From contig CACDPV010000001.1 in the NCBI GenBank assembly GCA_902554885.1, forward strand, positions 1-64,000: DNA of 64,000 bases, read 5' to 3'. The DNA is from Paracoccaceae bacterium. Lineage in GTDB: Bacteria > Pseudomonadota > Alphaproteobacteria > Rhodobacterales > Rhodobacteraceae. The position numbers and the translations under genes were made by a program. Under the pieces are notes generated by a model that saw only the letters and a list, made by a program, of their open reading frames with translations, made no database searches and was not told where the DNA came from. Within the stretch, counting starts at the first letter, position 1, and each line of letters begins with the position of its first letter. Shown here one piece after another: positions 57,413 to 59,655 of this stretch.

Positions 57413-59655
57413 ATGTCACGCACTGCCGACCCAGACATATTGTATACAATTGTAGACGAAGCGCCAGAACTTGCTAGTTCTTCTTTACTCCCAATTGTTC
57501 GCTCTTTCGCAGCATTGGCAGGTATCAATATTGGAAGCAAGGATATTTCTCTAGCAGGAAGAATCAAGGCGACTTTTGGCAATTATTTAAAAGAAGACCA
57601 AAAACAAACTGATGGTCTAAAAGAGCTTGGTCAAATAGTTCAGAATCCGAATGCCAATGTAATTAAACTTCCGAATATATCAGCGTCTGTACCACAGCTG
57701 GTGTCTGCAATAAAGGAGTTACAGTCACAAGGGTTCGCAATACCTGATTATCCCTATGAACCATTAACAGATCATGAAATCGGCGTGCGAAAGCTCTATG
57801 ATACAATAAAAGGGTCAGCTGTTAATCCCGTTTTACGGGAGGGAAATTCAGATCGCCGCGCAGCTAAAGCAGTAAAAAAATATGCAATGGCCAATCCGCA
57901 TTCCATGGGAAAATGGAGCTCTAGTTCTTCGACCCATGTTTCGTCAATGAGTGGGAACGACTTTTTTGATAATGAAAAGTCCGGTACTATCCAAGAAAGT
58001 CAGGTTGGTTTTGCAAGAATTGAATTTACTGACTCCGAAGGAAATATCGAGAATTTAAAGACAGATATAAAATTAGACTATGGTACAGTCGTAGATGCAA
58101 CTTTTATGTCTGTAGCAGATCTTCGTGCTTTTCTGTCGCATGAAATTAAAGAAGCAAAAAAGCAGGATGTACTTTTTTCTGTTCACTTGAAAGCTACTAT
58201 GATGAAAGTATCTGATCCAATTATTTTTGGTCATGTTCTTTCTGTTTTTTTTAAAGATGTTTTTGAAAAACACGGCAAGCTACTAAATGAGTTGGGTGTG
58301 AACCCTAATTCAGGGCTTGGTGACATTTTAGACCGTGTTTCGCAAAACTCAGAAATTATTGAAGAGTTTAATGCTATCATTGAGCAACAAGCAGATTTAT
58401 ATATGGTAGATAGTGACAGAGGAATAACAAATTTGCATGTTCCTTCTGACGTTATAATAGATGCGTCTATGCCTGCCCTGATTAGAGCAGGAGGAATAGC
58501 GTGGGGTCCAGATGGATCTACTAAAGATACCAAGTGCATCATTCCTGATAATTCATACGCACCAGTTTATGAAGAAGCGATAAATTTTTTTAAGAAAAAA
58601 GGTGCTTTAGACCCTTCAAGTTCAGGTACTGTTGCCAATGTCGGTTTGATGGCACAAAAGGCTGAGGAATATGGCAGTCACCCTACTACATTTGAAATTC
58701 CACGAGACGGGACTGTTCGGTATATCCTTGAAAATGGAGCTGTCTTGCATGAGCATAAAGTTAAAACTGGTGATATTTGGCGGTCATGTTCTGTAAATAA
58801 AGCTCCTATACTGGATTGGATTTCACTTGCTATAGAGCGTCAGGTGGCCACAGGTGCGCAGGCAATATTTTGGCTTGATCAGAATAGAGCTCATGATGCG
58901 CAATTAATTCCAATCGTAACACAGGTCTTAAATAAAAAGGGACTGTATGATAAATTTAAGATTATGTCACCCAGAGAGGCCACAAGGGCCACCCTTGAGA
59001 CAATTACTAAAGGACAAGATAGTATTGCAGTTACTGGAAATGTTCTTCGAGATTACCTAACTGATTTATTTCCAATTCTAGAGCTGGGTACTTCAGCGAA
59101 GATGTTGTCTATTGTAAAACTAATGAATGGGGGGGGGGCCTATTTGAAACTGGAGCTGGTGGCTCAGCCCCAAAACATGTTCAACAATTACAACAAGAAA
59201 ATCATTTAAGATGGGATAGCTTAGGAGAATTTTGTGCTTTAGGAGAGAGTTTTAATTTTCTTGCGGCTAATTCTGAAAATCAGAAAGCTGCGGCACTTGG
59301 ATTAGCTATTGAAAAAGCGACGCAGGGAATATTGGATAACAATAAGTCTCCTAGTCGAAAGGTTGGTGAAATAGACAGCCGGCACAGTCACTTCTTTTTT
59401 GCTATCTATTGGGCTGAAGCCCTTGCTGAGCAACAACAAGACCAAGATTTAGCTGTAAGATTTACCTCTGTCTTTAATTTGTTAAAGGAAAATGAGACTA
59501 AAATTCTTCATGAATTAGATAGCACTCAAGGAGTGGAGGTTGAATTAGGTGGATACTATCATCCAGATAGAGAAAAGGTAGCCAAAATTATGCGTCCATC
59601 TCCAACAATGAATTCAATCATTGATGAAATACTCCCTAATATTAAGTTTCACTAA
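57413..59655 (+). CDS. icd: NADP-dependent isocitrate dehydrogenase, monomeric type, frameshifted at poly-G
   Basis: The first frame encodes 598 codons (to 59209) matching the N-terminal part of the roughly 740-residue monomeric IDH: '[20 protein letters not shown]', '[18 protein letters not shown]', '[20 protein letters not shown]' and '[20 protein letters not shown]'. At the ten-G run (59129-59138) the frame is lost and nonsense follows. The true C-terminus continues in another frame from 59140: '[20 protein letters not shown]' to '[20 protein letters not shown]', ending at 59655. Eight G would give the family's 'NGGGLFETG' and a 746-residue enzyme; eleven would give one extra Gly. It oxidises isocitrate to 2-oxoglutarate in the TCA cycle. 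It may be a sequencing error, phase variation or slippage decoding. No second isocitrate dehydrogenase gene is seen. Confidence 0.9.
59129..59138. repeat. Homopolymer tract of ten G in the isocitrate dehydrogenase gene
   Basis: AAT followed by ten G and then CCTATTTG. It codes for the Gly run of '[10 protein letters not shown]' when it has eight bases. It is a striking tract in AT-rich DNA and the point of the frameshift. Confidence 0.9.

Follow-up and report, generated by a model that had tools for sequence, protein, structure and literature searches.

In the assembled sequence the gene for monomeric NADP-isocitrate dehydrogenase is split at an uninterrupted run of ten G, within the 64,000-nucleotide stretch analysed here (the window); as a feature of the organism, this split is most likely not real. 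The reading that we prefer, with a probability of about 0.77, is that the true run has eight G and acquired an indel during amplification, sequencing or assembly. The initial annotation had left three explanations in competition, namely an assembly or sequencing error, phase variation, and routine transcriptional or ribosomal slippage. The first fits best, since G/C runs of nine and ten break unrelated housekeeping genes while runs of eight stay in frame; the other two are not supported. Taken as biology, the split would represent a phase-variable TCA-cycle gene. The comparison with related genomes suggests a warning on draft assemblies instead, and the split is probably not a new mode of gene control.

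The split gene and its two halves

The frame starting at the ATG at 57413 on the forward strand reaches ATG-AAT (59123–59128), then exactly ten G (59129–59138) and then CCTATTTGAAAC. As assembled, this open reading frame has 598 amino acids with its stop ending at 59209, and homology ceases at the ten-G run although the frame reads on. The N-terminal 572 codons (57413–59128) are in frame up to the run, where the frame is lost; 59139–59209 forms the out-of-frame tail of the 598-residue frame with the stop at its end, and the C-terminal 171 codons of the same gene, stop included, lie in the other frame (59140–59655, likewise forward strand). In the profile search 57413–59143 matched positions 2–574 of PF03971 with 877.7 bits, and 59140–59652 matched positions 573–734 in the different frame with 237.5 bits, which covers all 734 positions of the family model, split over two frames. 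With TIGR00178 the N-terminal half matched positions 3–580 (810.4 bits) and the C-terminal half positions 579–742 (219.8 bits); the halves were scored separately and unjoined, and the cut-off of 950 bits as one protein was not reached. The sequence and the PF03971 and TIGR00178 matches of each half bear out the first claim made for this gene, a frame break exactly at the ten-G run. Equally borne out is the proposal that a tract of eight or eleven G at 59129 would preserve the frame and that a −1 slip would lengthen the product by one Gly.

Judged by sequence, this is an unremarkable gene for monomeric NADP-isocitrate dehydrogenase from a Rhodobacteraceae-type bacterium. Both halves match this family (PF03971, TIGR00178; solved as 1itw and in six further distinct chains) end to end, and the frame change at the ten-G run is the sole difference. 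The intact orthologue of the nearest sister genome, G012 (746 amino acids), aligns with the solved structure 1itw over residues 6–736 of 746. In comparison with this orthologue, dN and dS amount to 0.024 and 0.184 for the N-terminal part (ratio about 0.13) and to 0.012 and 0.102 for the C-terminal part (ratio about 0.12). The dN/dS values against G006 and G011 are likewise near 0.1 on either side of the run. Constraint looks equal on both halves, and the part 3′ of the run is free of decay. Separate translation of the C-terminal part is unlikely, its frame having no listed start before TTG 59332, about 190 bases in.

The ten-G run is the only G/C run of at least nine bases in the assembly of 1,460,046 bases. 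Given base composition alone, such a length is no more than mildly unusual: the window contains three overlapping 8-mers against 0.63 expected, and three were reached in 7 of 100 shuffles. The element that is not due to chance is the position of the run, flanked by two halves of one conserved gene. A search for literature joining monomeric isocitrate dehydrogenase and frameshift found none, and searches of phage records and of IMG/VR, the latter with a 26-base piece beside the run, were without result.

The site in relatives

Comparison of the tract length in close relatives, which had been suggested as a check, revealed interrupted or short runs in all ten genus genomes in which the site was seen, and an uninterrupted ten-G tract in none of them. 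G012 carries GGAGGCGG at the site (AAT GGA GGC GGC CTA), G006 and G011 carry GGAGGGGG (AAT GGA GGG GGC CTT), and in the remaining genus genomes shown AGT or AGC precedes a mixture of Gly codons. Eight G is the closest uninterrupted version of the sister-genome site that keeps the frame. Across the family, a motif scan of 394 genomes, about one per genus, yielded 110 matches in 109 genomes, genomes with a variant motif being uncounted. The pattern tolerated lengths from three bases shorter to two bases longer, and 109 of the 110 matches were in frame with a span of 29 bases; only the genome of the window, G000, was off frame (31 bases). An in-frame tract of eight G occupies the site in G393, a distant member of the family.

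We infer the following sequence of events. Synonymous changes in the lineage would have converted an interrupted run of the sister type into eight uninterrupted G, still in frame, and two further G would then have been gained during DNA amplification, sequencing or assembly. The living organism most likely makes intact enzyme. Support for an artefact comes from the off-frame state in 1 of 110 family matches, the in-frame eight G of G393, the equal constraint on both halves and the presence of the mismatch-repair genes in G000 (see below).

Long G/C runs in the genus

Every G/C run of at least eight bases was tallied in the 16 genomes of the genus. The 114 runs consist of 89 of length eight, 15 of nine and 10 of ten, with none longer. 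We examined 106 of them, including all 25 of length nine or ten; the eight left out are all of length eight. A script required at least 60 open codons on either side and then compared the frames. Runs less than 180 bases from the end of a locus and identical contexts (L174, a copy of L122, in frame) were dropped from the genus count, locus L156 is not included in it, and lipB, valine-tRNA ligase and TspO were classed 'nc' by the script. Coding runs were in frame in 42 of 49 cases at length eight, 3 of 6 at nine and 2 of 6 at ten, while 31, 8 and 4 runs, respectively, were non-coding or unclear. Lengths nine and ten combined give 5 of 12 in frame and 7 of 12 off frame. The A/T runs of 7–9, counted from the examined stretches only and not from whole genomes, were in frame in 160 of 166 cases. 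Fisher tests of G/C runs of nine and ten gave p = 0.003 against G/C runs of eight and p = 1e-6 against A/T runs of 7–9, values that serve as a guide only because sister genomes share ancestry. Manual assignment gave 15 distinct coding contexts of length nine or ten, of which 5 are in frame, the third that is expected had selection never seen these lengths. With about six in ten coding G/C runs of nine or ten off frame in the genus drafts (7/12), gene losses there should therefore be distrusted without reads.

Breaks of the same kind were found in unrelated conserved genes of similar drafts, and frame breaks at long G/C runs are not specific to the isocitrate dehydrogenase gene. Of the 25 nine- or ten-base runs, 10 were found, by hand and with NCBIfam matches of the halves, to break a conserved gene, the isocitrate dehydrogenase gene of G000 among them; six are in frame (five distinct contexts), and the other nine are non-coding, at a gene end or unassigned. 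Runs of ten break mfd in G005, an aldehyde dehydrogenase gene in G001, a CoA-transferase gene in G014 (in G002 the run has eight and is in frame), and both lipB and valine-tRNA ligase in G009. Runs of nine break tspO in G001 and three genes in G014, namely mfd, with its halves named by similarity to G005, a sarcosine-oxidase-alpha-type gene and an alpha/beta-hydrolase-type gene with weak matches only. A full mfd frame occurs in 8 of 10 genomes with a close match, and valine-tRNA ligase is intact in 13 of 14; the site itself was displayed for 6 of the 10 and 11 of the 14 loci, respectively, the others being missed by the search motif. Valine-tRNA ligase is essential, and its break is therefore unlikely to be the true state of a living cell unless rescued.

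The pattern resembles homopolymer indel errors in draft assemblies in that a single frame loss falls on the longest G/C run of the assembly and unrelated genes of sister drafts are broken alike; it differs in that A/T runs are unaffected here. None of the 32 coding A/T runs of 7–9 in the window breaks its frame, so the assembly is not generally poor, and a general homopolymer error as in pyrosequencing is not supported. In the accessible parts of the literature on single-cell or assembly indels, a measure of G-run error in such drafts was not found.

Several observations run counter to an artefact. If the true lengths were eight or nine, the errors would be mostly gains; losses are often expected from PCR stutter. 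The unbroken A/T runs of the window belong here too, as does the control outside the genus: among the runs listed from 14 genomes, three G/C runs of at least ten were in frame by eye (L259, L263, L273) and one of these four clear cases was broken (L271), the rest being unclear, two runs of 46–47 skipped and the set too small for a test. The script classes were set aside for this control because frames stay open by chance in G+C-rich genomes. A further counterpoint is the shape of the length distribution in the genus, which ends sharply at ten, with tens (10) too frequent beside nines (15). Finally, two related species both have mfd off frame, and shared biology is another possible reading of this. 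G/C runs of nine and ten in housekeeping genes of the genus might truly vary in living cells and be tolerated, with off-frame copies of isocitrate dehydrogenase, valine-tRNA ligase, lipB and mfd rescued through exceptionally efficient slippage of a polymerase or ribosome on G/C runs. We regard this as very improbable. If the run lengths were real, the loci would provide a natural test of cell survival under frame loss in essential genes.

Two contexts show how such runs behave in sister genomes. Four of these genomes (loci L127, L131, L218 and L234, from G002, G005, G015 and G014) share a gene context in which eight G stand in frame ahead of ATTATGGAT; runs of eight can therefore be stable. 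Upstream of a gene that we take to be mraZ-like, its neighbours having been viewed in L179 and L169 only, lies an uninterrupted conserved G run of the form CGCGCTCCT-G8..10-ATACTGCTC. Over eight sister loci this run has eight G in six (L125, L149, L224, L229, L231, L240), nine in one (L169) and ten in one (L179). Its length differs between sister genomes, so real length drift is possible. Rfam gave no match on three of the loci with this run.

Possible length change, slippage and gene loss in the living cell

The main rival to an indel introduced during amplification, sequencing or assembly is a real slipped allele, that is, an eight-G run unstable in vivo and a sampled cell or population that is off frame, perhaps reversibly as in phase variation. 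The accessible part of a report on Propionibacterium acnes (PMC4746626) documents G/C runs whose length varies between members of one species, in part with Sanger checks, and the 8/9/10 G of the run beside the mraZ-like gene also allow for real drift. The constraint on both halves would fit a recent slip as well. Against this stand the mismatch-repair genes of G000, which are present at full length (MutS as a frame of 885 and MutL of 637 amino acids). Loss of mismatch repair as the cause is rejected for this genome. Across the genus, 14 of 16 genomes yielded MutS and 13 of 16 MutL, 11 of the latter above the cut-off; G005 shows neither, and the MutL matches of G001 and G009 are fragments or at a contig end, so that these three genomes are uninformative on mismatch repair. 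Moreover, runs of nine and ten display no in-frame excess, and valine-tRNA ligase, which a cell should not survive losing, is no exception. A slipped cell would also bear the cost of losing what is seemingly its only isocitrate dehydrogenase, no second one having been found in the 53% complete assembly. Taken together, we consider a slipped allele unlikely.

For phase variation of this particular gene, as the initial annotation had also proposed, the comparison gave no support: no sister genome whose site was seen has the run, G000 possesses both MutS and MutL, and of the 110 family matches it alone is off frame. As far as the accessible part of PMC4746626 describes the G/C tracts of Propionibacterium acnes, the likeness lies in a long G run within an open reading frame and in lengths that differ between related genomes. 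The difference is that housekeeping genes are hit here and that the run is not conserved in the isocitrate dehydrogenase gene; among the relatives whose site was seen, eight G occur in this gene in the distant G393.

If the ten G were real, routine transcriptional or ribosomal slippage might still yield some full-length enzyme with one extra Gly. The three in-frame GGG codons before the shift site would make a −1 slip conceivable, and both halves are still constrained, as in slippage-corrected frameshifts, in which a constrained gene has its assembled frame broken at a homopolymer. Neither a conserved off-frame junction nor a stimulatory RNA structure downstream, as known from programmed ribosomal frameshifting, was observed. 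The 90-nt stretch 59139–59228, the one stretch tested and with pseudoknots not considered, has z = +1.04, with equally good folding in 171 of 200 shuffles. None of the sister genomes seen at this site carries the run, and with 109 of 110 family matches in frame no other match is off. In the accessible part of a transcriptome-wide study of E. coli and Buchnera, whose coverage of long G/C runs is unchecked, all homopolymer transcription insertions fell in A/T runs (PMC5574713). Slippage, transcriptional or ribosomal, is accordingly not supported and has, in our estimate, only a slight chance of being correct.

A genuine recent pseudogene, with a different isocitrate dehydrogenase encoded elsewhere and acting in its place, is hardly probable either: G000 is 53% complete, so a substitute enzyme could be out of view, but there is no sign of relaxed selection and the PF00180 search, which takes up the proposed check for another isocitrate dehydrogenase, found none in this 53% complete assembly. 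In G000 PF00180 matches a single gene, leuB (TIGR00169, 456.7 bits against a cut-off of 353.2), which has leuC- and leuD-like frames as neighbours. Three genomes of the genus are at least 90% complete; in these, the main PF00180 matches are leuB as well and a weak match in G007 is pdxA, every classified match being one of the two. The two others in these three genomes, a contig-end fragment in G011 and a weak match in G010, appear leuB-like and pdxA-like, respectively, by eye only.

The same search revealed two irregular leuB loci. In G010 leuB (L160:1486–2587) is broken by an in-frame stop and a frame change, with no long homopolymer in the stretch shown; the drafts therefore contain other lesions too. 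G011 apparently has two leuC-leuD-leuB clusters that differ from each other and are both truncated at the end of a contig (L164:1–192, corresponding to G011:C105, and L159, corresponding to G011:C45), and with a stated contamination of 4% this genome may be a mixed bin.
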